From assembly GCF_000935025.1 (NCBI RefSeq), contig NZ_CP010836.1:4566001-4630000 (forward strand): DNA of 64,000 nt. Reading direction: 5' to 3'. Each line of letters starts with the position of its first letter. Positions within the stretch are counted from its first letter, which is position 1. This document shows, piece by piece, positions 13,843 to 58,514 of this stretch. This DNA comes from Sphingomonas hengshuiensis. Lineage in GTDB: Bacteria; Pseudomonadota; Alphaproteobacteria; Sphingomonadales; Sphingomonadaceae. The notes below the pieces were generated by a model. That model made no database searches. It saw nothing but the letters and a program-made list of their open reading frames with translations, and was not told where the DNA came from. Made by a program: the position numbers and the translations under genes.

Positions 13843-13909
13843 GTTTCTGGAATTGACCCCGCTGAATGATATCGGGCGGCTGGCTGGACGGAATGCATGA
13901 TGACCCACC

Positions 13910-14860
13910 TCATTCGGAGAATGCCGGGGCCAGCATCGTCGCCATATCCCCTTTTGCATCGCGGGCTTTTGCGTTGAGCCTGACGAGTAATTTTCGTGCA
14001 AGAGCGATGCGGACGACCATCTTCGCCTTGCCCTGTGCGAGCAGCCGGTCGCGGAAGCTGGCGAGATCGTCGTCGTATTTTCTGGCGACGTCGGCGACGA
14101 GGTAGAGGATCGATCGGACGGAAGGCCTTCCGCCCCGAACGCGGCGCCGGCCATTGCGCTGTCCGCTGTCGTTGGCGAGGGGAGCAAGGCCCGCGAGCTT
14201 GGCGATTGCCTTGTTCGAGAGGGTGCCGAGTTCCGGCAGGTCGGCGAGCAGGACGGCAACGGTTCTGTCGGCAAGGCCCTTGATCGAACGAATGGTCTTG
14301 TCGAGTTCGGCCCAGAGCGGATCGGCGGTGATCAGCGCCGCGATCTGGGCCGCAAGTGCCTTGGCCTGGCGGTTGAAAAGGGCAATCGCCTCCTTCAGGC
14401 TCGCCAATGCGGTGGGCTCACTGGTGCTGTGCAGCCGCTGCTTCTGGACCGAGAGATCGGCGGTAACCTGGCGCAATCTGGCCGTAAGTGCCGTCAGCCG
14501 GCGCTGATCCTCAGACGGCGGAGGCGTGGCGACCAGCTGTCTGGCATCGGCATAGCCGGCGATCATCTCGGCATCGATGCGATCTGTCTTCTCCAGATTG
14601 CCCATCGCGTCGGCGAAGCTGCGAACGGCCCTGGGGTTGGCGATGGCGCAGGGCTGACCCTGCTTCCACAGCGCCAGGAAGGCCGCTTGCTCAACACCTC
14701 CCGAAGCCTCCATCACGACCAGTTCGACACTGTGTTCGCGGCAGAAGGCGAGCAGTTGCGCGACGCCTTCTGCCGTGTTGGCGAAACGCTGATATCGTCC
14801 GGCGGACCAGCTATCGAGCCAGGCTTTGGAAACATCCACTCCACAAAGGTTGCGCATCAC
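13910..14860 (-). CDS. IS110-family transposase (second, unrelated copy)
   Basis: A 316-residue DEDD transposase with D9 (CGVDVSK), E51 (VVMEASGG), D93 and D96 (KTDRIDAEM). The C-terminal Transposase_20 domain includes TIRSIKGLADRTVAVLLADL and KLAGLAPLANDSGQRNGRR. It is only distantly similar to the enzyme at 2550-3572 and represents a different IS110 subgroup. The coding region is complete. Its non-coding flank lies upstream, to the right at 14861 to about 15048, which is where IS110-group elements encode their guide RNA. The element is inserted between the efflux operon and an IS5 remnant. Confidence 0.9.
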   Translation of the reverse strand: MMRNLCGVDVSKAWLDSWSAGRYQRFANTAEGVAQLLAFCREHSVELVVMEASGGVEQAAFLALWKQGQPCAIANPRAVRSFADAMGNLEKTDRIDAEMIAGYADARQLVATPPPSEDQRRLTALTARLRQVTADLSVQKQRLHSTSEPTALASLKEAIALFNRQAKALAAQIAALITADPLWAELDKTIRSIKGLADRTVAVLLADLPELGTLSNKAIAKLAGLAPLANDSGQRNGRRRVRGGRPSVRSILYLVADVARKYDDDLASFRDRLLAQGKAKMVVRIALARKLLVRLNAKARDAKGDMATMLAPAFSE

Positions 14861-15048
14861 GGTAACCTGCCTTGTCTGTGCGATTGAGAATCAACCGACT
14901 GTTCGGTCGTGCGTGACAACGGCGATGATCCCAGGCTCCGTCGCGGTGAGCACCTGAGGGGGAACGGGCGACATCGCCGCCACGCCGGTGTGGGTGGCCA
15001 CCCACACCGGCGCTCAGTCGCTTCCAGCAGAAACGAGCCGTGCTCGTC
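14861..15048 (-). ncRNA. Upstream non-coding end of the IS110 element, possible bridge RNA
   Basis: About 190 bases without a gene separate the IS110 transposase start from the IS5 fragment. In IS110-group elements the guide RNA is transcribed from this upstream end. No inverted repeat defines the element border here, so the RNA and the element end are placed by family layout only. The perfect palindrome at 14983-15012 lies inside or at the edge of this stretch. Confidence 0.35.
14983..15012. repeat. Perfect 30-bp palindrome
   Basis: CGCCGGTGTGGGTGG (14983-14997) is followed immediately by its exact reverse complement (14998-15012), with no loop. It lies close to the outer end of the IS110 element. 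It could be a target preferred by the element, part of its guide RNA, or a fused pair of IS ends. Confidence 0.9.
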
Positions 15049-15331
15049 CAGATACAAGGGGGCAACCCTGCTCGGCGACAAGGGATACGACAGCAACGCC
15101 ATCCGTGAAGCTGCTGCCGCCAAGAACGCTTGGGCCAACATCCCATCGCGGTCCAACCGCAAGCAACGCTTCGCCTTCTCGGGCTGGCTTTATCAGCAGC
15201 GGAACCTTGTCGAGCGCTTCTTCAACCGTATCAAGCACTTCCGGGGTATCGCCACCCGCTATGACAAGTGTCCCGAAAACTACCTCGCCGCCGTCAAACT
15301 CATCTGCGCACGCATCTGGTGTGCAGCGTAA
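15049..15331 (+). pseudogene. IS5-family transposase, C-terminal remnant
   Basis: From about 15055 the frame reads GATLLGDKGYDSNAIREAA, then NLVERFFNRIKHFRGIATRYDK, the last catalytic segment of an IS5-type DDE transposase, ending at TAA 15329-15331. The N-terminal two thirds are missing, cut off where the IS110 element begins. The upstream part of the same open frame has no similarity to the family. Confidence 0.75.
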
Positions 15332-15423
15332 TGAGTCTACGCCCTAATGGTCTCGCACCGAGTTGACGCCGCAACCGACCGTTGCAGATGACAAGATGAC
15401 ACAGCGTCGCTAAGGCTTTTCCT

Positions 15424-15828
15424 ATGTTGGGGGCAATTCGAAGCAGGAAGAGTGCGCGCAGCCTTGCGGCTGCCCTGTTCGCGTTCGCCCTGTTGCTGCG
15501 GATCGCGATCCCCTCCGGCTTCATGCCCGCCCAGACGACGCATGGCATCGTTGTGCGCATGTGCGGCGGCATGGCCAGCGGCCAGACGATGCTCCTCGAC
15601 GTCGGCGTGCCGGACACGGGCAAACACCACCCCGAGCAGGACAAGCCGGTCGTGCCGTGCGCGTTTGCGGGGCTATCGGCGCCGGTGCTCGGCGCCGATC
15701 CGACGCTCGCCATGGCGATGCCGGCGATGGTGCTGGGCGAATTCGCGCTGCCGCCGCCCTCGGACTTCCGCCTCGCCGACGCCGATTTCCTGACCCCGCC
15801 GCTTCGAGGGCCGCCCGCGCGCGCCTGA
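15424..15828 (+). CDS. DUF2946 family protein (first copy)
   Basis: A 134-residue protein with a hydrophobic N-terminal segment (SLAAALFAFALLLRIAIPSGFMP) and the DUF2946 signature: GFMP, then HGIVVRMCGG, with further His, Met and Cys residues (KHHPEQDK, VVPCAF). The family is often found beside TonB receptors and copper proteins, but its biochemical role is not established. A second copy at 18865-19269 has the same motif order. It opens the copper-related block; the receptor starts 104 bases further on. A role in binding or sensing copper outside the inner membrane is inference from context and residues. Confidence 0.75.
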   Translation: MLGAIRSRKSARSLAAALFAFALLLRIAIPSGFMPAQTTHGIVVRMCGGMASGQTMLLDVGVPDTGKHHPEQDKPVVPCAFAGLSAPVLGADPTLAMAMPAMVLGEFALPPPSDFRLADADFLTPPLRGPPARA

Positions 15829-15931
15829 GCGCCGGAGTGGATCGATCCCGTCGCGCGCCGCGCGGCTTGTTTCCCTGTTCTCCGGTGTGCTGCGCGCCTG
15901 TCGCGCATTCCCAGCCCTGCCGGAGAATTCC

Positions 15932-18013
15932 ATGCTCAAGACCCGAATGCTGGCGACGCTCGCCTGCACCGTAGCGCCCGTTGCCGCCCATGCTCAGGAC
16001 AAGCCCGCCCAGGGCTGGACCGCCGACACCATCGTCGTGACCGGTCAGCGCGAAACCTATGCCACGCCGCAGACCACGACCGCGACGCGCACCGCCACGC
16101 CGGTCGAGAAAGTCCCCCAGTCGATCCAGACGATCACGCGCACGCTGATCGAGGAGCAGGATCTCCAGACACTGCCCGACGCGCTGGTCAACGTCTCGGG
16201 CGTGGTGCCCACCAGCATCGAGCAGACCGTGCTCCAGCCGACGCTCATCCGCGGCTTCGCAGTCAATTGTTACATCGACGGCGTGCCGACCTATCAGCTC
16301 CCGGCCGGCGTCGGCGATCCCGGCACGCTGGTCAATGTCGAGCGCATCGACGTCGCCAAGGGGCCGACCGCCACGCTCTATGGCGGGGGCAGCGGCGCGC
16401 CGCTGTCGGGGGTCATCAACCTCGTCTCGCGCGATCCTTACGACCGGCTGGGCATGACGATCACCGCGCGTGCGGGCTCGTTCGGCACGGTTGGGGCGGA
16501 AGGCGACGTCAATCTGCCGCTGATGGCGGGCGTCGCCCTGCGCGTGACCGGCATGATCGACAGCGCCGATAGCTATATCGACTTCGTCAGCCGCGATCGC
16601 CGCGCGATCTTCCCGACCCTGGCGATCGGCCTTGGCACCGATACCAGCCTGGTGGTGCGCGGGCGCTACAGCAAGATCGAGCAGACCGAATATGCCGGCC
16701 TGCCGGTGTCGCTGCTCGATCCGGTCGCGGTGATTGATCGCGCTACCTATGCCGGCGCGCGCGACATGCCGCGCACCGGAATCGAGAACAAGGGGCTGAC
16801 CGGATCGCTCACCCACCGCTTTTCGGACCGGGTGGAGGCGAATCTGACCGTCGCGCGCACCATCACCAGCTTCGAGGAACGGGGCAGCTTTCCCTATGGC
16901 GAGATCAGCGGGACGGTCTATAATTTCGGCACCGCCTTTCTGCCGTCCGAGAGCAAGAAGACCTATGCGACCGGCACGGTTACCGCCCGCTTCGGGGAGG
17001 GTGGCCTGCGCCAGACGATCCTGGTCGGCGCCGATTACGACCATAGCCGCTATTTCGGGGCGATGTATTTCAATCCGGCCTGGGCGACGATCGACTACGC
17101 CCGCCCGCTGCCGGCGCCGAACTTTGGCGGCGACCCGCCCTTTTATTTCGATCAGCACGACCGGATGGAGAGCTTCGCCCTCTTCGCGCAGGACCAGATC
17201 GGTATCGGCGATCGGCTGGACGTGACGCTCGGCCTGCGCTGGACGCATATCAAGGTCACCAGCAATGTCGGCGTGGCGACCGAGGATACCGCGGAGAAGG
17301 TCACGCCGCGGATCGGCGCGACCTTCCGCATCGTCGACGGCATCTCGCTGTTCGGCGGCTATGCCGAGGGGTTCCAGGGCGTGGTCGGCGGTGGCTTCTA
17401 CACCATCACCCCCAAGCCCGAGACGTCGCAGGCCTGGGAAGGCGGGATCAAGTTCGCAGCGCCGATCAAGGGGCTGACCGGCACCGCCGCGCTCTACCAG
17501 ATCACCCGCCAGAATGTGGTGACCGCCGATCCGGTGGTGCCGTTCGCGAACATCCAGACCGGCGAGCAGCGCGCGCGCAGCGCCGAACTCGACCTGATTT
17601 ATGAGCCGGTCCCCTCGGTGTCGCTGCTGTTCAACTATGCCTATACCGACGCCAAGGTCACCAAGGACAACAGCCTGCCGGTCGGCGACCGGCTGCGCGC
17701 GGTGCCGGCGCATAGCGGGCGGCTGGCGGCGCGCTACCGCTTCCGCGACGGCGCGTTGCGGGGCTTTTCACTGGGAAGCGGCGTCACCGCCGTGTCGCGG
17801 CGCGAGCTTACCTTGCCCAACACGGTGTCGGTCAAGGGCATGGCGCTGGTGGACGCGCAGGCCTCCTACGATCTCGGCCCCGTCTCGCTCAGCCTGTCGG
17901 TGACCAACCTGCTCGGCAATGACGGGCTGGAGCCGTACCAGTATTTCGGCGGCCCCTATGTGATCCCCACCCAGCCGCGCTCGGCCTTCCTCACGCTCAA
18001 GGGAGGGTTCTGA
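15932..18013 (+). CDS. TonB-dependent outer-membrane receptor (first)
   Basis: A 693-residue siderophore-type receptor. A signal peptide (MLKTRMLATLACTVAPVAAHAQ) precedes a TonB-box-like DTIVVTGQR. The plug domain is seen in VEKVPQSIQTITRTLIEEQ and VERIDVAKGPTATLYGGG, and the 22-strand barrel ends in RSAFLTLKGGF with the usual terminal phenylalanine. It should take up a metal complex across the outer membrane using TonB energy. The start ATG 15932 follows CGGAGA. The stop shares a base with the next gene (TGATG). Because the neighbours are copper proteins, a copper or copper-chelate substrate is more likely than iron, but this is not provable from sequence. Confidence 0.88.
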   Translation: MLKTRMLATLACTVAPVAAHAQDKPAQGWTADTIVVTGQRETYATPQTTTATRTATPVEKVPQSIQTITRTLIEEQDLQTLPDALVNVSGVVPTSIEQTVLQPTLIRGFAVNCYIDGVPTYQLPAGVGDPGTLVNVERIDVAKGPTATLYGGGSGAPLSGVINLVSRDPYDRLGMTITARAGSFGTVGAEGDVNLPLMAGVALRVTGMIDSADSYIDFVSRDRRAIFPTLAIGLGTDTSLVVRGRYSKIEQTEYAGLPVSLLDPVAVIDRATYAGARDMPRTGIENKGLTGSLTHRFSDRVEANLTVARTITSFEERGSFPYGEISGTVYNFGTAFLPSESKKTYATGTVTARFGEGGLRQTILVGADYDHSRYFGAMYFNPAWATIDYARPLPAPNFGGDPPFYFDQHDRMESFALFAQDQIGIGDRLDVTLGLRWTHIKVTSNVGVATEDTAEKVTPRIGATFRIVDGISLFGGYAEGFQGVVGGGFYTITPKPETSQAWEGGIKFAAPIKGLTGTAALYQITRQNVVTADPVVPFANIQTGEQRARSAELDLIYEPVPSVSLLFNYAYTDAKVTKDNSLPVGDRLRAVPAHSGRLAARYRFRDGALRGFSLGSGVTAVSRRELTLPNTVSVKGMALVDAQASYDLGPVSLSLSVTNLLGNDGLEPYQYFGGPYVIPTQPRSAFLTLKGGF

Positions 18014-18831
18014 TGGAGGGCTTCGATCGCCGCACCGCGCTGATGATGGGGCTGTTCGGTGCGCTGGCCGCCAGCCGGGCCGGCGCGCAGACCGCCGCCG
18101 ATCCGCACGCCGGCCACACCATGGCCGAGATGCCGCCCGGCTGGGTAAAGCCCGACCAGATCGCCATGCTCTGCTATCCCGGCATGACGATCCTCGACCT
18201 GATCGGGCCGCAATATATGTTCGCGGCGCTGATGGGCGCGACGGTCCATCTGGTCGGCAAGACGCGCGATCCGATGACCAGCGACACCGGCGTCACCATC
18301 CTTCCCACCACGACCTTCGCCGAGTGCCCGAAGGACCTGACCGTGCTGTTCGCACCCGGCGGTGCGAGCGGGACGCTGGCGGCGATGCGCGATGACGCCA
18401 CGCGCGCCTTCATCGCCGATCGCGGCGCCCGCGCCCAGTATGTCACATCGGTATGTACCGGCGCACTGATCCTGGGTGCTGCGGGACTGCTCCAGGGCTA
18501 TCGCGCGACGACCCACTGGGCCGCGCTCGAGACCCTGGCCGATTGCGGCGCGACGCCGGTCTCCGAGCGCGTCGTGCGCGACCGCAACCGCATCACCGGC
18601 GCCGGGGTCACCGCCGGGCTCGATTTCGGGATCGCCATGGTCGCCGAGCTGCGCGACCCGGTCTATGCGCAGGGCGTACAGCTGGGCTGCGAATACGATC
18701 CGCAGCCGCCCTTCCATGCCGGCTCAACCCGCACCGCACCCCCAGAGGTGCAGGCGATCATGAGGTCGATGTACACCGCCTTTCCGGGCCAGGTGCGTGC
18801 GGCGCTCGCCGCGGTGAAGGCGGCGTCATGA
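18013..18831 (+). CDS. Exported DJ-1/PfpI family protein
   Basis: A 272-residue member of the DJ-1/PfpI superfamily. The N-terminus has a twin-arginine pair and hydrophobic run (DRRTALMMGLFGALAAS), suggesting Tat export. The mature protein starts with DPHAGHTMAEMPP, whose His/Met spacing resembles copper-binding tails. The core fold includes IAMLCYPGMTILDLIGP and the nucleophile elbow SVCTGALIL with the conserved cysteine. Relatives include isonitrile hydratases and AraC-type amidase domains. It overlaps the receptor gene by one base. An exported copy in a metal-uptake operon is unusual; it may modify or release an imported ligand (inference). Confidence 0.8.
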   Translation: MEGFDRRTALMMGLFGALAASRAGAQTAADPHAGHTMAEMPPGWVKPDQIAMLCYPGMTILDLIGPQYMFAALMGATVHLVGKTRDPMTSDTGVTILPTTTFAECPKDLTVLFAPGGASGTLAAMRDDATRAFIADRGARAQYVTSVCTGALILGAAGLLQGYRATTHWAALETLADCGATPVSERVVRDRNRITGAGVTAGLDFGIAMVAELRDPVYAQGVQLGCEYDPQPPFHAGSTRTAPPEVQAIMRSMYTAFPGQVRAALAAVKAAS

Positions 18832-18864
18832 CCGCCTGCGCTCCTCGGTCGCAGGGCTGAACCG

Positions 18865-19269
18865 ATGCCGCTGACGACCCGGATCCGCAACTCCACGCCC
18901 GCACGGCGCGTCTTCGCGCTGCTGCTGCTGTGCGTGCTGGCGATCCGGGTCGCGATCCCGACCGGGTTCATGCCGATCGCCAATGCACATGGCATCACGA
19001 TCTCCGTCTGCACGGGCCAGGGCGCGGTGACGGCGTTCCTGCCCATTCCGCAGCGTGAGGACGGCCAGGACCATCATGGCCCGGCAGCGGCACCTTGCGC
19101 CTTCGCCATCGGGCTCGGCGGCCCGCTGCTCGACCCGACCGATCCGGCATTACGCGTTACGCCGGCTTCGACTTTCGATGCGCCGCTCCGTTCCTCGATG
19201 GCGGACATGACCGTTCACCGTCTGGCTGCGCCACCGCCGCCCGCTCAGGGACCTCCTTCACGCGACTGA
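18865..19269 (+). CDS. DUF2946 family protein (second copy)
   Basis: A 134-residue paralogue of the protein at 15424-15828. It shares the N-terminal helix (VFALLLLCVLAIRVAIPTGFMP) followed by AHGITISVCTG, a HHGP segment and APCAFAIG. Conserved Cys and His positions match the first copy, while the C-terminal tails differ. It lies between the DJ-1-like gene and a cluster of small membrane proteins. Function is not established; metal binding in the periplasm is a reasonable guess from residues and context. Confidence 0.72.
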   Translation: MPLTTRIRNSTPARRVFALLLLCVLAIRVAIPTGFMPIANAHGITISVCTGQGAVTAFLPIPQREDGQDHHGPAAAPCAFAIGLGGPLLDPTDPALRVTPASTFDAPLRSSMADMTVHRLAAPPPPAQGPPSRD

Positions 19270-19366
19270 AGCAGGCGCGGCGCATCGATCTCGGTCGCCG
19301 CTGGCAGCGCATGGCTCACCCATGCGCGTGACGCCTTCGGGCGGCAGGAGCGGAGGAACTCCCAAA

Positions 19367-19540
19367 ATGTCGAATATTGCAACGGCACCCACGCCGTTCA
19401 TCGCCTGGCTGCGCCGGACGCGCCGCTCGGCCTGGCTGCTGATCGGGCTGTGCCTGGTTTTTCGCGTCGGTGACGCGGTGCTTGGCGAGCGCCACGCCGC
19501 CGATGCGGGCACGCCCGCCATGGCGGCGATGGCCCAATGA
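19367..19540 (+). CDS. Small membrane protein, 57 residues
   Basis: This short gene starts at ATG 19367 behind a good GGAGG site and overlaps the next gene by 4 bases (ATGA at 19537). The protein has one membrane helix (SAWLLIGLCLVFRVGDAVLG) followed by a short Met/His-containing tail. The helix loosely resembles the first segment of the DUF2946 proteins, so it may be a reduced relative. No function is recognised. The ribosome site and coupled overlap argue that it is really translated. Confidence 0.6.
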   Translation: MSNIATAPTPFIAWLRRTRRSAWLLIGLCLVFRVGDAVLGERHAADAGTPAMAAMAQ

Positions 19541-20064
19541 GCGCCGAGGCCCTTTCCGGGCGCACGCCCCCAGACGCGATCGGTCCGTGGCAAGCGACAC
19601 ACGCCACCGAGAACGAAATCCGCATGATCGCACCGCGGTCGGCGCTGCCGGTTCAGGGGAAGTATCTGCTCTGGGGAGCAGGCGTAGCCGCCGCGCTTCT
19701 ATCGCTGCGCTTCGTGCTGATCGGCGCCTGGCTGGTGCTGCTCTTCTCGGTGCTCGACATCGGCGGGCTCGCGGTCGCGCTGTACCTGTTCAATAAGGGG
19801 CCGGTCCCCGAGGAACGGCTCCGCGTCGTCGACGGGGTCGTCGAGCTTGTCCGCCTCGACGGGCGCGGTCGCCAGTCCCGAATCGCCCTGCCGGCCTATT
19901 GGACGCGGCTCGAGGCGAACGGCCGCACCGAACTCGACCATGCGCTGTGGCTCGTCTTTCGCCACGAGCGATACCCGATCGGCCAATGCGTGTCGGCTGA
20001 TGAGCGGCGCGTGCTCGAGCCCCGCATCCGGGCGCTGCTGCAAACCGCGCGGGGCACCGCGTGA
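19537..20064 (+). CDS. DUF2244 domain membrane protein
   Basis: A 175-residue protein. After a variable start come two closely spaced membrane segments (YLLWGAGVAAALLSLRFVLIGAWLVLLFSVLD and a following short helix), then a soluble domain beginning with ERLRVVDGVVELVRLDGRGRQ. This is the layout of DUF2244, often linked to heme-copper oxidase gene neighbourhoods in alphaproteobacteria. The protein could start at a later Met (M30) and keep the domain. It is translationally coupled to both neighbours by 4-base overlaps. No enzymatic role is known. Confidence 0.65.
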   Translation: MSAEALSGRTPPDAIGPWQATHATENEIRMIAPRSALPVQGKYLLWGAGVAAALLSLRFVLIGAWLVLLFSVLDIGGLAVALYLFNKGPVPEERLRVVDGVVELVRLDGRGRQSRIALPAYWTRLEANGRTELDHALWLVFRHERYPIGQCVSADERRVLEPRIRALLQTARGTA

Positions 20065-21203
20065 CCGCACGCAGCCGCATCCTTCTCCGCCAGGTCCATC
20101 TCTGGCTCGGGCTGGCGCTTGGCGGGCTGTTCGCGCTGCTGGCCGCGACCGGCTCGGCGCTGGTCTTCTATATCGAGATCGACAAGGCGTTGCATCCGGC
20201 GATCCAACCGACGGCGTCCGCGCCGACATTGGACTGGTCATCGCCGGCCTGGGACCGCGCGCTGACCACCGCCCGGACGCACTGGCCCGATCCCCACGGC
20301 AACTGGTCGTTCGAGGCGACCGGCGAGCCCGGTGCCATCCCCGCACGCTACTACCCATCGGAAGCGCATGGCCATCACGCCGCACGCACCATGGTGTGGT
20401 TCTCCCCCGATGGTGCCCAAGTGCTGCGCGCCGAGCCGTGGGGCGGCTATCTGATGAGCTGGCTCTACGAACTGCACATGCATCTGCTCGCGGGCGAGAT
20501 CGGCAGTCAGATCGTCGGCTGGTCGGGCTTCGCGATGCTGGTGCTGCTGGTCAGCGGCATCGTGGTCTGGTGGCCGCGCGGGAGCTGGCGCAAGGCGCTT
20601 GCCTTCAAGCGCAACGCCGTGCCGATCCGGCGGCTGCGCGACCTCCACAAACTGGCGGGCGTGTGGAGCATGGGCCTGCTTTTCGTGCTGGTCGGCACCG
20701 GCGCGCTGCTCGCGCTGCCCACGGTAAAGGCGCAGTTGCTGACTGCGACGATCGCTGCGCCCGACCCGATACCCGATCCGCAATCGGGCGCATCGCGCGG
20801 ACGGCAAATCCCGATCGCGCGGGCGCTCGCCGCTGCACGCCGGGCAGTGCCGGAGGCCCGGCTCGCTTTTATCGACGTGCCGGGCGCGGGACCGAAGCCG
20901 TTCCGCATCCGGGTGCAGATGCCCGGCGATCCGCATCGCCGCTTCCCCGGCAGCTTCGTCTTTATCGACCAATATTCCGGCGCCGTGCTTGCCGTCCATG
21001 ACGTGCGGCGCGGCAACGCGGCGACGACCACCGTCAAATGGATCCGCGTCCTGCACGACGGATCGATCGCGGGCCTGTCGACCCGCATCCTCGCCGTGAT
21101 CCTCGGCCTCGTTCCGCTCGGTCTGTTCGTGACCGGGTTCCTTCACTGGCGCCGCCGCCTCGCGGCCCGCGCCCAAGCCCATACAACAGGGAGTTTCTCG
21201 TGA
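20061..21203 (+). CDS. PepSY-associated membrane protein
   Basis: A 380-residue inner-membrane protein with the PepSY-TM architecture. Helix 1 (HLWLGLALGGLFALLAATGSALVFY) is followed by a periplasmic PepSY domain, a second helix pair with HMHLLAG and WSGFAMLVLLVSGIVVWWPRG, the DLHKLAGVWSMGLLFVL helix, and a final helix ending GFLHWRRR. Conserved histidines on the helices suggest heme binding, and relatives such as FoxB and FsrB act as reductases for imported siderophore or metal. The GTG start at 20061 overlaps the upstream stop, and the stop overlaps the receptor GTG at 21200. It probably reduces or releases the metal imported by that receptor. Confidence 0.8.
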   Translation: MTARSRILLRQVHLWLGLALGGLFALLAATGSALVFYIEIDKALHPAIQPTASAPTLDWSSPAWDRALTTARTHWPDPHGNWSFEATGEPGAIPARYYPSEAHGHHAARTMVWFSPDGAQVLRAEPWGGYLMSWLYELHMHLLAGEIGSQIVGWSGFAMLVLLVSGIVVWWPRGSWRKALAFKRNAVPIRRLRDLHKLAGVWSMGLLFVLVGTGALLALPTVKAQLLTATIAAPDPIPDPQSGASRGRQIPIARALAAARRAVPEARLAFIDVPGAGPKPFRIRVQMPGDPHRRFPGSFVFIDQYSGAVLAVHDVRRGNAATTTVKWIRVLHDGSIAGLSTRILAVILGLVPLGLFVTGFLHWRRRLAARAQAHTTGSFS

Positions 21204-23338
21204 AAGCATCGTTCCTCGCCATCGCGGCGTGCCTCGTCGCGTCTCCGGCGCTGGCCCAGGTCGCCGACAATTCCACCGACCGCGACACGATCCTCGTCAC
21301 CGGCCAGCAACTCGAGCAGCAAACCGAGGTGTCGGGCCGGCTCGGCCTCTCCATCCGCGAGACGCCGGCGGTGGTCGACATCGTCACGCAGCAGGATTTC
21401 CAGCTGCAGGGCGTTCGCAACGCGATTGAGGCGATGAACGCCGCGCCCGGCGTCGCCTCCGGCAACCTGCCGGGATCGATCGGCGCGGTGTCGATGCGCG
21501 GTTTCCAGCGTGCGGTGAACTATCTCTATGACGGCGTGCGCATGGCCAATTCGGACGTCGGGGTGCGCAACTGGGATGCCTGGTCGTTCGAGCGGATCGA
21601 AGTCATCAAGGGGCCGGCCTCGGTCACCTCGGGCGAAGGCGCGCTGGCCGGCGCGATCAACTTCGTGCCGCGCCGACCCACTCTTGACGGACCGAGCGGC
21701 GAGATGCTGGCCAGCTATGGCAGCTTCGATACCGCACGCCTCGCCGCCGATGTGAACCTGCCGCTCGGTAAGACATTGGCAGTGCGCGGCGACGTGTCCT
21801 TCTCGCGCTCGTCGGGGTGGATCGACGACGCCGACAGCCGGACCTTCGCGGCCACCGGCTCGCTCCTCTTCAAGCCCAGCGACCGCTTCTCGCTGGTCGT
21901 CTCGGTCGACCATTTCGAGGACCGGTTCGAGACCGCCTATTACGGCACGCCGGTCGTCGCGCGGTCGGTGGCGCGCGACCCGTCATCGGCGGTGTCGGGC
22001 AGTTCCGGGCTGGTGCTCGACAAGGCGATGCGCCGGACCAACTTCGACTATACCGACGGCAAGGACGGGTCGAACACGACCTGGCTGCGCGCCCGCGCCG
22101 ACTATGCGCTGAGCGACACGCTGACGATCGTCAGCGACACCAGCTATTATGACAGCTTCCGCGACTATAAGGACGCCGACGAATATAGCTTCAACGCCAC
22201 GACCGGGCGGATCGATCGCGGCGCGACCTATATCAGCCACGATCACCAATATTGGAACCAGCGCCTGCACCTTGCCTTTGACGGCCGGATCGCGGGGCTG
22301 CGCAATCGCTTCACGATCGGAGCCGAATTCGGCCATACCGATTTCTTCACGGTGCGGCGCTTCGGCGCCTCGTCCGTCGATCCGTTCAATCCGGTGCGGG
22401 GCATTTTCCCGGCCGACACCCCCGCCAATTTCTCGACGCGCCAGGACGTCACCGCGAAGGTCGATGCGCTTGCGATCTTCGCCGAGGATGCGCTCAATCT
22501 GACCGACCAGTGGCTGGTCGTCGGCGGCATACGCTATGACGATGTGAAGCTCGACCGCAGCGTGCGCAACGCCACCAGCGGCGCGGTGCAGACCTATGGC
22601 CAGACCTATCACCCGATCTCGTGGCGCGCGGGCACGGTCTATAGCGTCACGCCCCGCACCCAGTTGTTCGCGCAATATACCCGCGCGGTCACCCCGGTCA
22701 GCGGCCTGCTGTTCCTCAGCGCCGCCAACGCGAAGTTCGAACTGACCACCGGCTATTCCTATGAAGGGGGCATCAAGACCTCGCTCAGCGGAACCGGCGT
22801 CGAACTGACCGCATCGGCCTTCTATATCCGGCAGGACGACATCCTCACGCGCGATCCGACCAACCCGGCGGTAGTGTTCCAGGGCGGCGCGCAACGCTCG
22901 CGCGGGGCGGAAATCTCGCTCAACCTGCCGGTCACGCCGGAGCTGAACGTGACCGCGAGCGGCACGCTGCTCGACGCCGAATATCTGGAACTGATCGAGG
23001 CGGGCGGCGTCAACCGCGCGGGCAACCGGCCGCAGAACGTCCCCGAGCGGCTGGCCGATCTCGTCGTCACCTGGTCGCCCAAGGCACTGCCGATCACGCT
23101 GGTCGGCAGCATGCGCCACAATGGCGATTTCTACACCGAGACCGCGAACGTCACCAAGGTCAACGCCTTCACGACCTTCGACGCGGCGGTGTCGTGGAAC
23201 GCATCCTTCGGCACGCTGACGCTGCGCGGACGCAACCTCACCGACGAATTCTATGCCGACTGGTCCGGCTACGCCTCCGGCCTCGTCTTCATCGGCGCAC
23301 CGCGCAGCGTCGAGCTGTCGTTCACCCGCAAATTCTGA
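21200..23338 (+). CDS. TonB-dependent outer-membrane receptor (second)
   Basis: A 712-residue receptor starting at GTG 21200, coupled to the PepSY gene by GTGA. It has a short signal peptide (VKASFLAIAACLVASPALAQ) and a TonB-box-like DTILVTGQQ. The plug holds IRETPAVVDIVTQQDFQ and FERIEVIKGPASVTSGEGA, and the barrel ends SVELSFTRKF with terminal phenylalanine. It is only distantly related to the receptor at 15932-18013. Pairing with a PepSY membrane reductase in front and MbnP-MbnH behind supports a role in copper uptake. Specific ligand residues cannot be assigned by eye. Confidence 0.88.
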   Translation: MKASFLAIAACLVASPALAQVADNSTDRDTILVTGQQLEQQTEVSGRLGLSIRETPAVVDIVTQQDFQLQGVRNAIEAMNAAPGVASGNLPGSIGAVSMRGFQRAVNYLYDGVRMANSDVGVRNWDAWSFERIEVIKGPASVTSGEGALAGAINFVPRRPTLDGPSGEMLASYGSFDTARLAADVNLPLGKTLAVRGDVSFSRSSGWIDDADSRTFAATGSLLFKPSDRFSLVVSVDHFEDRFETAYYGTPVVARSVARDPSSAVSGSSGLVLDKAMRRTNFDYTDGKDGSNTTWLRARADYALSDTLTIVSDTSYYDSFRDYKDADEYSFNATTGRIDRGATYISHDHQYWNQRLHLAFDGRIAGLRNRFTIGAEFGHTDFFTVRRFGASSVDPFNPVRGIFPADTPANFSTRQDVTAKVDALAIFAEDALNLTDQWLVVGGIRYDDVKLDRSVRNATSGAVQTYGQTYHPISWRAGTVYSVTPRTQLFAQYTRAVTPVSGLLFLSAANAKFELTTGYSYEGGIKTSLSGTGVELTASAFYIRQDDILTRDPTNPAVVFQGGAQRSRGAEISLNLPVTPELNVTASGTLLDAEYLELIEAGGVNRAGNRPQNVPERLADLVVTWSPKALPITLVGSMRHNGDFYTETANVTKVNAFTTFDAAVSWNASFGTLTLRGRNLTDEFYADWSGYASGLVFIGAPRSVELSFTRKF

Positions 23339-23488
23339 CGCGCTTTCCAGGAGACGAACGCATGTATGCCATCCCTGCACTTGTCGCTGCCGCGTGACGC
23401 TGATGCCCGCCACACAGGCCGCGATCGGCATAGGTCATGCTCAACGGGCGGTTGCGAGCCCCCCCAATCCCAAGGTGAAGGAGAAATC

Positions 23489-24349
23489 ATGATGCGGTTC
23501 GTTCTCGCGCTAGGCACGCTGCTGGCCGCTGTCGCAGCCATCCCGGCGTTCGCACAACCCACGCAGCAACCCGTCGAAATCCGCTTCGATGCGCGGGTCG
23601 GCACCGAGCCGGCGCGGTGCGGCCAAGCCTATGCCGATGTCGGCACCGCCAAAGCCGGCCTGCGCTTCCAGGATATGCGCGTCTATGTATCGGCGGTGAA
23701 GCTGATCGACGCCAGCGGACGCGCGGTGCCGGTGACGCTCACCCCCGACGATCAGTGGCAGAGCGATCAGGTGACGTTGCTCGACTTCGAGGACGGGTCG
23801 GGCAACTGCAACGGCAACGCCGCCACCAACAAGGTGGTGCGCGGCACCGTGCCCGCCGGCGACTATCGCGGCCTGATCTTCGAGGTCGGCGTGCCGCAAG
23901 CCGTCAACCACCAGGATCCTACGCTCGCCGCCGCGCCGCTCAACGTCACCGCGCTGACCTGGCCATGGCGGGTCGGCTACAAGTTCACCACGATCGATCT
24001 GCAAACCAGCGGCGGCGCGGGCGGCCCCAATGCCGCGACCGGCTTCTCGATCCATCTCGGCAGCACCGCTTGCGGTGAAGGATCGCCGATGACCGCGCCG
24101 AGCGCGCCCTGCGCCAACCCCAACCGGCCCAGCTATCGGCTCGACGGCTTTGATCCGGCCAAATCGACGGTGATCCTCGACATGGGCGCGCTGCTTGCCG
24201 GCACCGACATCACGGTCAACGCACCCAAATCGGCATCGGGCTGCATGTCCTTCCCGAGCGATGGCGACTGCATCGCGATCTTCGACCGGCTCGGCCTGCC
24301 GTTCGACAGCAAGCCCTCGAGCGGCCAGAAATGGGTACGGGCCGAATAG
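23489..24349 (+). CDS. mbnP: MbnP-like copper-binding protein
   Basis: A 286-residue exported protein (signal peptide MRFVLALGTLLAAVAAIPAFAQ) of the metallo-mystery-pair four-Cys family (MbnP). Six cysteines occur in the mature part, in RCGQAY, GNCNGN, TACGEG, PCANP, GCMSF and GDCIAI. Tryptophans in LTWPWRVGYKF and DDQWQS are candidates for the kynurenine modification known in MbnP of methanotrophs, where the partner MbnH oxidises a Trp to build a high-affinity copper site. Start ATG 23489 follows GAAGGAG. The gene is immediately followed by the MbnH homologue, as expected. No methanobactin precursor is visible nearby. Confidence 0.85.
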   Translation: MMRFVLALGTLLAAVAAIPAFAQPTQQPVEIRFDARVGTEPARCGQAYADVGTAKAGLRFQDMRVYVSAVKLIDASGRAVPVTLTPDDQWQSDQVTLLDFEDGSGNCNGNAATNKVVRGTVPAGDYRGLIFEVGVPQAVNHQDPTLAAAPLNVTALTWPWRVGYKFTTIDLQTSGGAGGPNAATGFSIHLGSTACGEGSPMTAPSAPCANPNRPSYRLDGFDPAKSTVILDMGALLAGTDITVNAPKSASGCMSFPSDGDCIAIFDRLGLPFDSKPSSGQKWVRAE

Positions 24350-24351
24350 CC

Positions 24352-25542
24352 GTGCAGCGCGTCTGGAACCTCGCCCTGCTATTCTCGGCAGTCCTGCTGG
24401 CCCTCAGCGTGGCGCATGCGCAGCAGCGGCAATCGGCGCTCCAGCCGATCGACGCGATGGTGCCCAGTCGGTACGACTTTGGTCTGCCGGCCTGGGCCCC
24501 CCGACCGATGGAGCCTGCCGCCAACCCGACCACGCCGGCCAAGGTCGAACTGGGGCGGTATCTGTTCTACGACACGCGCCTGTCGCTGGACGGCACGATG
24601 GCGTGCGCCTCCTGCCACGAACAGGCGCGCGCCTTCACCGACGGACGCGCGGTATCCAAGGGCGTCACCGGCGAGAGCACGCCGCGCAATTCGATGTCGC
24701 TGGTCAACGTCGCCTATTTCCCGGTGCTGACCTGGGCCAATCCGCTGCTAAAGCATCTCGAGCAGCAGGCGCTGGTGCCGCTGCTGGGGCAGGAGCCTGT
24801 CGAACTCGGGCTGGCCGGCAAGGACGCCGAGATCGTCCAGCGGCTCGCCGCTGAGCCGGTGTACCGGCGCCTCTTCGCCCAGGCATTTCCGGAGGCGGAC
24901 GGCGAGATTTCACTGGCCACGGTGGTCCGTGCATTGTCGGCGTTCGAACGCTCGATCGTGTCGATGCGCTCGCCCTATGACCGCTATCGCTATGAAGGCG
25001 ATGCCGACGCCCTTTCGGACTCGGCGGTCCGGGGCGAAGCGCTGTTCTTCTCCGAGCGGCTCGAATGCCATCACTGCCATAACGGCCTGAACCTCGCGGA
25101 CACCGTGCTACACGAGCGCAACAAGGCGGGCGAGATCGCCTTCCACAATACCGGGCTCTACAATCTCGACCGCAAGGGCGCGTATCCAGCGAACAATACC
25201 GGCATTGCCGAGATCACCGGCCGGCCCGAGGATATGGGCCGGTTCCGGGCGCCGAGCCTGCGCAACGTGGCGGTGACGGCGCCCTATATGCACGATGGTT
25301 CGATTCCGACGCTCGACGCGGTGATCGATCATTATGCAGCGGGCGGGCGGACGATTTCCTCCGGGCCGCACGCCGGGATTGGCCGCACCAACCCCTATAA
25401 GAGTTCGTTTGTCTCGGGCTTCACGCTGACGCGAGCGGAACGCGCGGACCTGATCGCGTTTCTGACGTCGCTGACCGACGAGGCGCTGCTGCACGATCCG
25501 CGCTTCGCCAACCCCTGGCCCAAGAAGGAAAACGCCAAATGA
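24352..25542 (+). CDS. mbnH: MbnH-like di-heme cytochrome c peroxidase
   Basis: A 396-residue periplasmic di-heme protein of the MauG/CcpA superfamily, MbnH branch. From GTG 24352 it has a clean signal peptide (VQRVWNLALLFSAVLLALSVAHA). Heme sites are CASCH (85-89) and CHHCH (239-243), with RAPSLRNVAVTAPYMHDGS before the C-terminus as in this superfamily. An upstream ATG at 24331 would overlap mbnP by 19 bases and is less likely. In methanotrophs the protein forms a bis-Fe(IV) state and converts a tryptophan of MbnP to kynurenine. Its stop overlaps copC by 4 bases. Confidence 0.85.
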   Translation: MQRVWNLALLFSAVLLALSVAHAQQRQSALQPIDAMVPSRYDFGLPAWAPRPMEPAANPTTPAKVELGRYLFYDTRLSLDGTMACASCHEQARAFTDGRAVSKGVTGESTPRNSMSLVNVAYFPVLTWANPLLKHLEQQALVPLLGQEPVELGLAGKDAEIVQRLAAEPVYRRLFAQAFPEADGEISLATVVRALSAFERSIVSMRSPYDRYRYEGDADALSDSAVRGEALFFSERLECHHCHNGLNLADTVLHERNKAGEIAFHNTGLYNLDRKGAYPANNTGIAEITGRPEDMGRFRAPSLRNVAVTAPYMHDGSIPTLDAVIDHYAAGGRTISSGPHAGIGRTNPYKSSFVSGFTLTRAERADLIAFLTSLTDEALLHDPRFANPWPKKENAK

Positions 25543-25895
25543 AGACATTGTGGACCGCCGCGATCGTCGCGGCAGCGCTGGCGGTGCCGGCGGCGGTGCA
25601 GGCGCATACCGCGCTGCGCAGCTCCAACCCGGCGAGCGGCAGCGTCCTGACCCAATCCCCGCCCGTACTGACGCTGACCTTCCTTGAGCCCGCGTCGCTG
25701 ACGTCGCTGACGCTGGTGACGGCGGCTGGCGAGCGGCAATTGCCGTTCAAGCCGGCCGGCAAGGCGCTGGTGTTCAACGCGCCCCAGCCGGGGTTCGTGC
25801 GCGGCCGCAACGAGGTGCGGTGGCGGGCGCTGTCGCGCGACGGCCATGTCGTCGAAGGCAGCATCATCATCGTCCTCCGCGCGCCCAAGCCCTGA
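25539..25895 (+). CDS. copC: CopC copper-binding periplasmic protein
   Basis: A 118-residue CopC/YobA protein. The signal peptide ends at VQA, leaving an N-terminal histidine (H23, in AHTALRSSNPASGS). Together with D101 and H103 (LSRDGHVVEG) this forms the known Cu(II) site of the family. There are no Met-rich loops, so it is the Cu(II)-only type. ATG 25539 overlaps the mbnH stop, and the copD start follows 1 base after the copC stop. It should pass or hold periplasmic copper for the CopD membrane protein. Confidence 0.9.
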   Translation: MKTLWTAAIVAAALAVPAAVQAHTALRSSNPASGSVLTQSPPVLTLTFLEPASLTSLTLVTAAGERQLPFKPAGKALVFNAPQPGFVRGRNEVRWRALSRDGHVVEGSIIIVLRAPKP

Positions 25896-25896
25896 T

Positions 25897-26995
25897 ATGC
25901 TCGAAGCGCTCGCCGCGCTCGCCAAGGGGATCGGCACTGCGGCGGCGCTGACCGCTGCGGGCACGATCCTGGCGCGGGTAACCTGGGCGCGCGGCGGCGC
26001 CCAGTCGCGTCCGATGGCTGCGGGTGTCACGCGCTGGGCGGGCATCGCGCTGGCGATCACAGCCTGCGGGGAGGCGCTGCTGTTCTTCGTGCGGCTCGGC
26101 GGCGGCGCGGACGCGGCGACGCTTGGCGCGCTGTTCCTGTCACCGCTCGGCGCGGCGCTGGGGCTGCATCTCGTCGGTGGTATATGGGTAGCGGCGTTCG
26201 CGAGGAGGCGGGTCGCACTGGTCGGCGCGGCGATGATCCTCGCCGCGTTCGGCGTCGTCGGCCATGCCGCTACCAACGGCATCGTGACATCGATCACCGT
26301 CATCCTGCACGTAACCGCCGCCGCCTGGTGGTTGGGCGGCCTGTGGATCCTGCTCGGGGCGAACCGGACCAGCGCGGCGGAATTTCTGTCACTGGTCGAC
26401 CGGTTCAGCCGACAGGCAGTCTGGGTGGTCGGCGTCCTCCTCGCCGCTGCCCTGACAACGACCGCCGCCTTGCTCAACTTGCGGATCGATCTCGCGCTTG
26501 CCTATCAGCAGGGACTGCTCGTCAAGCTCGCCTTTACCGGCGCACTGCTCGTCCTGGCAGGTATCAACAAACTGATCCTGACACCCCGTCTTGCCGCCCG
26601 TGCCGACGCTCGTGTCTGGCTGCGCCGGGCGATTGTCGCCGAGATACTGCTGTTCGTCGGCGCGCTCACCACGACGGCATATCTCACCACCTATCTGTCA
26701 CCGCATGACGCAGACGACGCAGCCCATGCCCATGGCGATGCGGGTGCGGCGCATGGTCCGATCGCTGTTGTCGATCCCTGGGCAGCCGCGGTGCCCGGAG
26801 GGGCGATGACGGGCGCCGGCTATATGACGATCGTGAACAATCAGCCGGTGGCGGATCGCCTGATCGGCGCGAGCAGCCCATGGGCCGAGCGTGTCGATAT
26901 ACAGGCGTCGGAACGGGCCCGCGGGATAGCCCATATGCGTGCGCCCAAAGCGTTGCCGGTGCCTGCCCACGGGCAGGTTGTGCTGCGGCACGGCG
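25897..26995 (+). pseudogene. copD: CopD membrane protein fused to a PCuAC chaperone domain, truncated
   Basis: ATG 25897 starts a CopD protein with about eight membrane helices (including VILHVTAAAWWLGGLWILLG and LLVKLAFTGALLVLAGINKL). At about residue 268 a His/Asp/Ala linker (HDADDAAHAHGDAGAAHG) leads in frame into a PCuAC copper chaperone domain: VVDPWAAAVPGGAMTGAGYM, then ADRLIGASSPWAERVDIQ and IAHMRAPKALPVPAHGQVVLR. The domain is cut near 26990, where the sequence becomes the reverse of an integrase gene. The frame stays open by chance to 27537. The C-terminal copper ligands of PCuAC are therefore missing. The CopD part may still work. Confidence 0.8.
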
Positions 26996-27453
26996 CGCAG
27001 GACGGCCAAGACTTCCTGCGGCGACATCTTCGAGACGGGAAGGCTGCCGATCATCGGATACGTCATGCCGAGCAGCCAGCGAATCTTGTCGAGCGTGATC
27101 GGTGCGCGGCCCTCCCGTTCATTCTTCGGCACCCATTCTTCTGCGATCGTCTTGAACGTGTTGTCGGCCGCCACCTTGCGCGCGAGGTTCTCGCCCCTCT
27201 TCTCGGCAGCGGGATCGAGGCCGGCGGCAATCTGCTCCCGCGCCTTATCGCGCCGCTGGCGCGCCATGGCGATTCCCACCTCGGGCCAGGCGCCGAAATA
27301 GAGCGTCTTCTGCCGGCCAAGGTGTCGGCAGTTCATGCGCCAGAGTTTCGTACCGTTGGTCTGGACGACGAGGTAGAGCCCATCGGAGTCGGCCACCTTG
27401 GAGGCCTTGTCTTTGGGCTTCGCGTTGGTGATCTGGATGTGATTCAGTGCCAT
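26995..27453 (-). pseudogene. P4-type tyrosine integrase, N-terminal remnant
   Basis: From ATG 27453 about 150 residues of a P4-like integrase are present. The arm-binding domain (MALNHIQITNAKPKDKASKV, SDGLYLVVQTNGTKLWRM, KTLYFGAWPEVGIAMARQRR) is followed by the start of the core-binding domain (FKTIAEEWVPKNE, ITLDKIRWLLGMTYPMIGSLPVSKMSPQEVL). It then stops abruptly near 26995 against the copD-PCuAC gene, so the catalytic domain is gone. Its position beside tRNA-Leu and its direction away from the tRNA are those of an island integrase. The break is probably the scar of a deletion inside the island. Confidence 0.85.
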
Positions 27454-27481
27454 GATGGTACCAGCTCCAAAGGGCTCTCCG

Positions 27482-27514
27482 GCACCATCAAAAACACCAT
27501 CATTTTGATGGTGC
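27482..27514. promoter_or_regulatory. Inverted repeat upstream of the integrase
   Basis: GCACCATCAAAA (27482-27493) and TTTTGATGGTGC (27503-27514) are exact inverted repeats around a 9-base centre that itself repeats CACCATCA. It lies 29-61 bases before the integrase ATG and may be a binding site for integrase or an excision factor. It is also a weak terminator-like hairpin. Near the attachment site, GCTGGACG is repeated at 27593-27600 and 27603-27610. Confidence 0.5.
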
Positions 27515-27626
27515 TGCCGATGGATTCGGGTGGATGAGCCCGGATTCCATTTGGCGATTTTCACTGAAAATATGCTGTAAAACCAGCTGTTTGCTGGACG
27601 CTGCTGGACGTATCCAGAGCCAGTAT

Positions 27627-27713
27627 TGGTGCCCAGAAGAGGACTCGAACCTCCACGACCTTGCGATCGCCAGCACCTGAAGCTGGTGCGTCTACCAATT
27701 CCGCCATCTGGGC
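27627..27713 (-). tRNA. tRNA-Leu (CAG)
   Basis: An 87-base tRNA with acceptor stem GCCCAGA paired to TCTGGGC, discriminator A and encoded CCA. The anticodon loop TTCAGGT gives anticodon CAG (leucine, CUG codon), with the long variable arm expected of tRNA-Leu and a TTCGAGT T-loop. Its 3' end (27627) faces the integrase remnant. Such 3' ends are classic attachment sites for P4-type islands, and the gene is left intact. Confidence 0.95.
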
Positions 27714-27856
27714 ACGGGGTAGGGGGCGGCCTTTAGGGGCGGGGTGGTTGGCTTGTCAACTGCGACGTTGCGGAAAAGCGAAGCGTGCGTGGCGCTTGCC
27801 GTTTTGGGCTGCGCGCGGCATTGGGGGCGGCTCGCAGGACGGCGGATGAGGCGGAC

Positions 27857-28783
27857 ATGAAAGACAGGCTGGTAACGCTGATCGGTGGCGGCGGATTTTT
27901 TGGCCGCTATGTCGCACAGGAATTGCTGCGCGCCGGCGCGCGGGTGCGCATTGCGCAGAAGCGGCCGCGCGATGCGTGGTTCCTCAAGCCGCAGGGCGGG
28001 CTCGGCCAGACCCAGTTCGTCGCGGCCGACATCGCCCAGCCCGAGACGCTGCGCCACGCCGTCGACGGCGCCGACGCAGTGGTGAACCTGGTCGGCATCC
28101 TCGCAGGCAATTTCCAGGCAGTGCATGTCGACGGCGCGCGCAACGTTGCGGCGGCGGCGAAGGCGGCGGGCGTAGAGGCGCTGGTCCATGTCTCGGCGAT
28201 CGGCGCGGATCCGGCTTCGGCATCGGCCTATGGCCGGTCGAAGGGCGAGGGCGAGGCGGCGGTGCGCGGCGCCTTTCCCGAGGCGACGATCCTGCGCCCC
28301 TCGATTCTGTTCGGGCGCGAGGATGCATTTGTGAACCGCTTCGCCGGGATGATCGCCGCCGCGCCGGTAGTGCCGGTGCTGCGCGCCGGGGTGAAGTTCC
28401 AGCCGGCCTATGTCGCCGATGCGGCGCAGGCCGTCGTCGCGGCGCTCGCCGATCCGGGCCAGCATGGCGGGCAGCTGTACGAACTGGGCGGGCCCGATGT
28501 GATCAGCATGGGCGCGCTTCATCGCTGGATCGCCGATGCGATCGGTCGCAAGCCGCATTTCCTCGAGCTTCCCGATTCGGTCGGCGCGATCCTGGCCTCG
28601 CTGCCGGGGACGCCGATCACGCAGGACCAGTGGCGGATGCTCCAGCAGGACAATGTCGTTGCGCCAGGGGCCAAGGGGTTCGCCGCACTGGGGATCACCC
28701 CCACGCCGCTCGCCGCGGTCGCGCCGGGGTGGCTGGTGCGCTTCCGCCGGCATGGGCGTTTCGGGCGGCTCGGCGCAGCCTGA
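27857..28783 (+). CDS. NDUFA9-like NAD(P)-binding protein
   Basis: A 308-residue atypical short-chain reductase of the complex I NDUFA9 family. The dinucleotide motif is LIGGGGFFGRYVAQELL, followed by VVNLVGIL, HVSAIGADPASASAYGRSKGEGE (the YxxxK pair), and ATILRPSILFG. In alphaproteobacteria this protein is linked to complex I or quinone-related functions, but its exact substrate is not known. The start ATG 27857 sits just before the glycine-rich motif. It precedes uppP by 44 bases and may share its promoter. Confidence 0.85.
   Translation: MKDRLVTLIGGGGFFGRYVAQELLRAGARVRIAQKRPRDAWFLKPQGGLGQTQFVAADIAQPETLRHAVDGADAVVNLVGILAGNFQAVHVDGARNVAAAAKAAGVEALVHVSAIGADPASASAYGRSKGEGEAAVRGAFPEATILRPSILFGREDAFVNRFAGMIAAAPVVPVLRAGVKFQPAYVADAAQAVVAALADPGQHGGQLYELGGPDVISMGALHRWIADAIGRKPHFLELPDSVGAILASLPGTPITQDQWRMLQQDNVVAPGAKGFAALGITPTPLAAVAPGWLVRFRRHGRFGRLGAA

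Positions 28784-57448: not shown

Positions 57449-58514
<1,066 letters not shown>

Follow-up and report, generated by a model that had tools for sequence, protein, structure and literature searches.

An exported isocyanide hydratase homologue linked to TonB-dependent receptors in a probable copper-acquisition locus of Sphingomonas hengshuiensis

A locus of copper-handling genes was analysed in a 64,000-nt stretch of the Sphingomonas hengshuiensis genome (5.23 Mb, two contigs), which runs from position 4,566,001 to 4,630,000 of contig NZ_CP010836.1 and is called the window below; the locus occupies positions 15424 to about 26994 of it. We identified the DJ-1-like protein of the locus, by its sequence, as an exported homologue of isocyanide hydratase (ICH) and observed that genes for such proteins are linked to genes for TonB-dependent receptors; this identity and this linkage are what is new here. 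At a probability of roughly 60%, we read the locus as a laterally acquired one for copper acquisition, with control by a CruR-like upstream open reading frame (uORF), import of a copper chelate and opening of the chelate ligand by the ICH-like enzyme. Open reading frame (ORF) lists, Pfam and NCBIfam scans and a codon-usage gene caller gave 11 genes on one strand plus a 57-aa ORF, in agreement with the run of about twelve same-strand genes with 1- or 4-base overlaps reported in a first-pass annotation of this DNA. The genes for the first receptor (TBDT1) and the ICH-like protein share 1 base (18013), and 4-base overlaps were found between the 57-aa ORF and the DUF2244 gene (19537-19540), the DUF2244 and PepSY genes (20061-20064), the PepSY gene and that of the second receptor, TBDT2 (21200-21203), and the MbnH and CopC genes (25539-25542). 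The DUF2244 gene, the 57-aa ORF, the uORF role and the ICH identity had not been named in that annotation. It had also held that the full combination was undescribed, which did not stand: Roy 2022 (PMC9426467) lists TonB-dependent receptor, PepSY_TM, PCuAC, CopC and MbnP-MbnH-like genes in CruR-headed operons, and most of the combination is thus already in print. The main text of that paper (its figures and supplements aside) does not mention a DJ-1 or ICH partner, and 'DJ-1' gave 0 hits in PMC12914433; a literature search on ICH, DJ-1, PfpI or ThiJ together with TonB and copper returned no title on the linkage, with PMC4176598 and PMC6110883 sharing some of these terms and most subscription papers lying outside its reach.

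The earlier description of the enzyme as exported and DJ-1-like was right as to export and superfamily, but isocyanide hydratase is the closer relative, with 206 bits for 6ni5 vs about 32 for human DJ-1, and among named families with solved structures ICH is the closest. The top solved match was 3ewn (309 bits), a chain of the ThiJ/PfpI family with no function assigned, and the nearest named relatives among the matches listed were those of Sphingomonas pokkalii L3B27 (96% identity) and Sphingomonas sp. 37zxx (86%). ICH turns isocyanides (isonitriles) into N-formamides by means of Cys101 and Asp17, and isonitriles often show chalkophore activity, according to PMC10971408 and PMC10792529. Both catalytic residues are conserved in the window protein (as Cys148 and Asp62), and its likeness to the Pseudomonas enzyme InhA/ICH (6ni5/3non) extends over the whole domain. 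Unlike InhA/ICH, the window protein is exported, carries an N-terminal extension with a twin-arginine-like N terminus, belongs to a different clade and is linked to a receptor, and we infer its substrate.

A quick tree of 167 rows placed the window protein in a 52-row clade (SH-aLRT 95) which contains 3ewn and in which 39 rows are labelled receptor-linked, with the proven Pseudomonas ICH (6ni5) outside it in another, mostly cytosolic group; more exported groups lay outside both, one of them mostly beta-proteobacterial (often with MbnP-MbnH), another sphingomonad, and others from Gemmatimonadota and cyanobacteria. The catalytic Asp and Cys were invariant in 56/56 receptor- or copper-linked members, and so were a DRNR stretch and a Tyr (6ni5 chain position 174); in 50 cytosolic ICH members the Asp and Cys were kept, but not the invariance of DRNR and Tyr. 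An RR pair with a hydrophobic stretch before the domain was present in 49/56 linked members vs 12/60 of the comparison set, signals being called by a home-made rule with the domain start misplaced in some rows (e.g. L061, L154, L201). Near relatives of 3ewn at loci L065 and L066 sit behind TonB receptors, and one genome of the same genus (G033; loci L036, L037 and L038) holds seven ICH-like matches, most of them within about 50 kb.

The linkage was surveyed in two sets of loci. One comprised the 80 best of at least 537 confirmed ICH relatives (at least 597 pattern matches) from a collection in which each of 84,980 species is represented by a single genome; having been picked by likeness to receptor-linked members, it is biased towards these. 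The other, phylum-wide set comprised 60 of the 75 places that the window protein matched in 398 genomes of the phylum, with at most 6 candidates scored per genome and with two own places, the place in genome G132 and the 12 weakest omitted. Window-seeded hits in these same loci served to build the family profiles, which may miss receptors. A TonB receptor gene was found directly upstream on the same strand in 46/80 of the best relatives vs 1/60 phylum-wide, a receptor within 5.5 kb in 54/80 vs 4/60, and at least one of six copper markers (MbnP, MbnH, PCuAC, CopC, CopD, DUF2946) nearby in 28/80 vs 2/60; the phylum-wide set is mostly cytosolic ICH, and this contrast therefore lies between types and not within one. 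Near the 80 best relatives, MbnP or MbnH occurred at 12, PCuAC at 12 and PepSY_TM at 10. Enzyme likeness and the likeness of the upstream receptor to TBDT1 rise together (Spearman 0.58, n=44, without correction for kinship), and 42/44 upstream receptors were closer to TBDT1 than to TBDT2. The combination of MbnP, MbnH and ICH was also considered as a general triad and dropped as a rule, 0/19 sampled MbnP loci carrying ICH. An ICH-like gene does follow MbnP-MbnH directly in L100, L103, L122 and L124, which are cyanobacterial and Gemmatimonadota records.

In Bordetella pertussis, the uORF CruR belongs to the DUF2946 family; when copper is absent, ribosomes stall at its C-terminal RAPP and expression of the receptor operon is switched on, whereas copper, sensed via CXXC, relieves the stall (PMC9426467). 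Arrest is supported by both RAPP and RGPP in several contexts, and that of CruR has been demonstrated in vitro (PMC12992588). To look for such uORFs, we took 44 of the 46 receptor-linked loci, namely those with 900 nt or more upstream of the receptor. An ORF stopping at most 800 nt upstream, with R[AG]PP among its 16 C-terminal residues, was detected for 27/44 receptors. Among the 200 same-strand ORFs of these stretches, the counts for other first residues of the motif were 4 for Q, 1 each for P, T and G and 0 for the rest, and 0/212 antisense ORFs had an R[AG]PP end. A Cys stood 47-53 residues before the Arg in 26/27 of these uORFs and opened a CXXC in 10/27. The uORFs are a sign, independent of gene content, of copper control over these receptors. 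The sole phylum-wide locus with a receptor directly upstream of ICH (L179) also bears a DUF2946-type uORF with R[AG]PP.

The window itself carries two ORFs of this kind. DUF2946-1 has RGPP at 128-131 of its 134 residues, 3 residues from the end, and Cys79 lies 49 residues ahead of it, the same spacing as from C90 to R139 of CruR (PMC9426467). In DUF2946-2, Cys78 lies 50 residues ahead of QGPP, so that the R[AG]PP end is lacking, and in both ORFs CAFA stands at the place of the CXXC of CruR. That these are DUF2946 proteins, as had been annotated, is borne out by geometry, position and homologues but not by Pfam score: DUF2946-1 gave no Pfam match at E<=0.01, and DUF2946-2 scored 17.4 bits, below the PF11162 cut-off of 23.7. 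On these features both appear to be DUF2946/CruR-like, and a uORF role is likely. Single-Cys uORFs of this type bear on how CruR-type arrest peptides sense copper. In the gap between DUF2946-1 and TBDT1, the RNA fold was no better than that of shuffles (z -0.17), and a riboswitch search over 13000-28000 returned a tRNA as the single RNA match. Elsewhere in the same genome (L240 2237-4864; G000:C1:2916000-2924000), a DUF2946 ORF with CVIC and a C-terminal RAPP precedes a TonB receptor and forms a more standard CruR-receptor pair with it; the ORF scored 23.9 bits in one scan and 23.0 in another against the 23.7 Pfam cut-off.

The locus resembles the CruR-headed operons (B. pertussis cruR-crtA/bfrG-bp2921; PMC9426467, PMC12914433) in having a DUF2946-type uORF with a RAPP-like end ahead of a TonB receptor, and PepSY_TM, PCuAC, CopC and MbnP-MbnH-like genes are likewise known from such operons (PMC9426467). 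Unlike them, it has a pair of DUF2946 genes, each with one Cys in place of CXXC and one of the pair ending in QGPP, as well as two receptors, a DUF2244 gene and an exported ICH-like enzyme. Another exported protein of the DUF2946 type that senses copper while nascent and has a proline-rich end is CutF of Rhodobacter capsulatus (PMC9973294); it raises a multicopper oxidase with copper through CxxxC, whereas the window uORF precedes receptors, as CruR does.

Both receptors passed TIGR01783 (268 and 253 bits, cut-off 223.5), which upholds the two TonB receptors of the first-pass annotation. The solved chains closest to TBDT1 carry FoxA/CntO labels (187 bits). For TBDT2 the closest was 9rvq/9rvx (CrtA_Bp) with 262 bits, the runner-up reaching 127, and by sequence TBDT2 is related to this importer of chelated copper. 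CrtA, formerly BfrG, is the best-studied CruR-controlled receptor; it was shown to import chelated copper, His358 is essential in it, and its natural ligand has not been identified (PMC12914433). In a pairwise alignment read by eye, His358 aligned with a His of TBDT2, while Y130, W265, E337, Q356 and R395 of CrtA faced N, Y, D, I and D, R395 standing beside a gap. The PepSY_TM gene adjoins that of TBDT2 but on its upstream side. The OprC-type model TIGR01778 gave TBDT2 19.2 bits against a cut-off of 472, TBDT1 was not among the 25 of 26 matches listed, and neither receptor has OprC-type Met/Cys/His motifs.

The remaining copper genes were confirmed to differing degrees. MbnP (280 bits for TIGR04052, cut-off 140) and the adjoining MbnH (513 bits for TIGR04039, cut-off 363) both exceeded their model cut-offs, so that the annotated pair is sound and matches the metallo-mystery pair of PMC3621798. 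MbnP contains a WxW motif, and MbnH has haem-binding CXXCH motifs at 92 and 246 of its 403-aa frame. A kynurenine-based copper site is expected in such a pair. No methanobactin biosynthesis gene was seen beside it, MbnB and MbnC not having been searched for. The PepSY protein was equally confirmed (PepSY_TM, 182 bits). CopC, which had been credited with a full Cu(II) site, was recognised by Pfam (60.7 bits); a His stands where the mature protein is expected to start and a DGH further on, which we take to be the Cu ligand set. As for the CopD-PCuAC fusion, CopD was supported (44 bits), but PCuAC is not whole: profile positions 1-77 of 109 were matched and the remainder is absent. The intact domain in a 417-aa homologue at L033 (same-genus genome G113) runs on through HLM, whereas the window copy has Gln at the first His place and lacks the HLM, presumably keeping one of the four His/Met ligands of the motif. 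A working PCuAC was accordingly excluded, with the domain cut, three of the four expected ligands lost and a junction at 26994/26995, and the proposal that PCuAC passes copper on falls with it. Copper acquisition as such, the gist of the first-pass annotation, was strengthened by the nearness of TBDT2 to CrtA and the CruR-like uORF, together with PepSY_TM, MbnP-MbnH, CopC and CopD.

The borders of the locus point to an island. The copper genes do reach 26994, but position 26995, annotated as the end, is a recombination junction and not a gene end, because the CopD-PCuAC frame runs antisense into an integrase and homology to relatives stops there; from 26995 on, the sequence is a phage-type integrase on the opposite strand. 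In nine same-genus loci compared, integrase-side homology ends exactly at 26995 in three and at 27038 in one, and in five of the nine it begins precisely at 27627, where tRNA-Leu(CAG) ends. The tRNA-Leu and an epimerase gene are conserved core in the genus, and these breakpoints therefore assign the tRNA-Leu and the gene beyond it to the core, with the copper locus on the island side. A search for a second genome copy of the 29-nt tRNA-Leu end as an attachment repeat found none within 3 mismatches. On the left, blastn homology to S. pokkalii starts at 15345, right after a transposase remnant, and DNA identity to that species is about 92-94% over 15345-23410 and 23562-26891. Between those blocks S. 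pokkalii holds about 2.3 kb extra, with the gene for a third, Pfam-confirmed TonB receptor (663 aa); in that species, too, the PCuAC match is shortened (1-39 of 109). The comparison and the cut PCuAC therefore mark the window copy as a shortened form of a mobile locus. Of the order sample, 1/296 genomes had MbnP, namely the window's own, as did 20/398 of the phylum sample (16 above cut-off), and the same-genus genome G113 has it too; this scarcity fits a lateral gain of the locus. A fuller locus in G113 (L032 19350-20000 and L033 1574-2278) has an extra receptor, and immediately ahead of MbnP it carries another ICH-like gene, which belongs to a different clade. Genes for Fe/Mn superoxide dismutase and SCO1/SenC occur in related receptor-ICH loci (L032 18559-19278; L034 7122-7814; L042 5970-6428; L045 6559-7209) and are absent from that of the window.

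Gram-negative acquisition of scarce copper is poorly known. We infer a regulation, ligand and copper flow for this locus in the following way. Under copper shortage the ribosome would stall on the RGPP end of DUF2946-1 and the downstream genes would be expressed, copper relieving the stall, by analogy to CruR. TBDT1 and the CrtA-related TBDT2 would bring copper chelates into the periplasm, where PepSY_TM may reduce the metal and the exported ICH-like enzyme may open the ligand of TBDT1 and so free the copper. MbnP, matured by MbnH, and CopC would then bind copper and CopD may carry it inward, with PCuAC presumably out of play in this strain. The most likely class of ligand for TBDT1 would be isonitrile chalkophores of foreign origin, in view of the family to which the enzyme belongs, the copper context and, to a weak degree, the absence of PvcA-type synthases. 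Such a synthase (PF05141) was not found in the window's own genome, and among 31 ICH-bearing genomes there were 0 matches above cut-off and 1 weak match, other isonitrile pathways not having been searched; the absence is weakly indicated, because 14 control genomes were silent too. On these counts a self-made isonitrile was set aside. The linkage of ICH, receptor and uORF points to one ligand chemistry, isonitriles, and makes the question of the CrtA-type ligand testable. It is rather doubtful whether all this amounts to a widespread module for taking copper from chelators of other microbes, in which under CruR-type control a TonB receptor imports Cu-isonitrile chalkophores and a Tat-exported ICH irreversibly destroys the ligand and frees the copper. 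If true, isonitrile chalkophores would have importers in the outer membrane, and a protein family known only for detoxification would gain a role in physiology, as would 3ewn.

Several observations weigh against our reading of a laterally acquired, CruR-like-controlled locus for copper acquisition. No R[AG]PP uORF was present in the stretch examined for 17/44 ICH-linked receptors, and 52/80 ICH loci have none of the six copper markers; ICH is missing from all 19 sampled MbnP loci. Of 7 phylum-sample ICH loci with a signal, a receptor lies within 5.5 kb at 1 only (L153), and exported ICH homologues without a receptor occur (L155, L157, L196). In the window, DUF2946-1 lacks the second Cys and DUF2946-2 ends in QGPP, a consensus scan found no sigma-70-like site, both receptors match a siderophore-type model, and TBDT2 shares only the His of the six CrtA site residues. 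Erosion marks the local copy, with PCuAC cut and the third receptor of S. pokkalii missing, and a transposon remnant ends 79 nt ahead of the first ATG. This erosion could mean a decaying island copy that is no longer useful, the more so with transposon remnants upstream and an integrase remnant downstream; we regard this as unlikely, since all other frames are open and identity to S. pokkalii remains high over the shared parts.

A tentative but serious alternative keeps the copper locus and gives the ICH-like protein another task, namely binding copper or protecting periplasmic proteins through a His/Met N-terminal segment, or acting on a methanobactin-type chelate. An H-M or HxM element was found at most 35 residues before the domain in 32/56 linked members, the window protein and 3ewn fall outside the proven-ICH group, and MbnP or MbnH lies near 12/80 ICH loci; yet the invariant Asp and Cys are more than a mere binder needs, 24/56 members lack the H/M element, and the sampled MbnP loci are without ICH. 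The TBDT1-ICH pair could also be a detoxifying unit that destroys toxic periplasmic isonitriles, copper supply not being its purpose, given that a defensive role is ascribed to cytosolic ICHs (PMC10971408, PMC10792529) and that PvcA-type synthases above cut-off were absent from the 31 genomes (the controls being silent), so that any isonitrile would be foreign. This seems improbable, for a receptor gene directly ahead implies wanted uptake, and copper-type uORFs and copper genes are close by. Finally, a siderophore locus for iron merely beside copper-handling genes would account for the TIGR01783 matches and the FoxA/CntO labels, and reduction of ferric siderophores is known from relatives of PepSY_TM, e.g. 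FoxB (PMC12914433). We hold it to be very unlikely in view of the closeness of TBDT2 to CrtA and the CruR-like uORF; furthermore, a strict Fur-box consensus had no match across the 64 kb (a weak test), and siderophore-synthesis genes, named in the first-pass annotation as neighbours that would speak against copper, were absent among the 8 non-transposon neighbours scanned (a light test).

Table 1. Features of the locus and its borders (window positions)
Feature	Position	Strand	Basis or remark
Transposase (DDE) remnant	14909..15331	+	Pfam PF01609, 31.9 bits
DUF2946-1, CruR-like uORF (likely)	15424..15828	+	motif geometry; homologues in L053 (S. pokkalii) and L032 (G113) end alike
uORF-TBDT1 gap, 103 nt	15829..15931	+	gene calls
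TBDT1, TonB-dependent receptor	15932..18013	+	TIGR01783
Exported isocyanide-hydratase-like protein, DJ-1 superfamily	18013..18831	+	solved-structure matches, catalytic Asp62 and Cys148
DUF2946-2	18865..19269	+	17.4 bits, below cut-off; layout as DUF2946-1
57-aa ORF, without Pfam match	19367..19540	+	related ORF at same place in L032, L053
DUF2244 membrane protein	19537..20064	+	Pfam 82.1 bits
PepSY_TM protein, possible metal reductase	20061..21203	+	Pfam 182 bits
TBDT2, CrtA_Bp-related receptor	21200..23338	+	TIGR01783; solved chain 9rvq/9rvx
MbnP family protein, WxW motif	23489..24349	+	TIGR04052; closest solved structure 7l6g (146 bits)
MbnH family di-haem enzyme, two CXXCH	24352..25542	+	TIGR04039; closest solved structure 6e1c (411 bits)
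CopC	25539..25895	+	Pfam 60.7 bits
CopD fused to cut PCuAC domain	25897..26994	+	frame goes on to 27537, antisense to the integrase
Phage-type integrase remnant	ORF 26698-27564; stretch homologous to relatives from 26995	-	domain scan, locus comparison
tRNA-Leu(CAG), likely integration site	27627..27713	-	borders conserved core

Apart from the locus, the window contains two tandem 175-nt copies, 90% identical, at 57158-57511.

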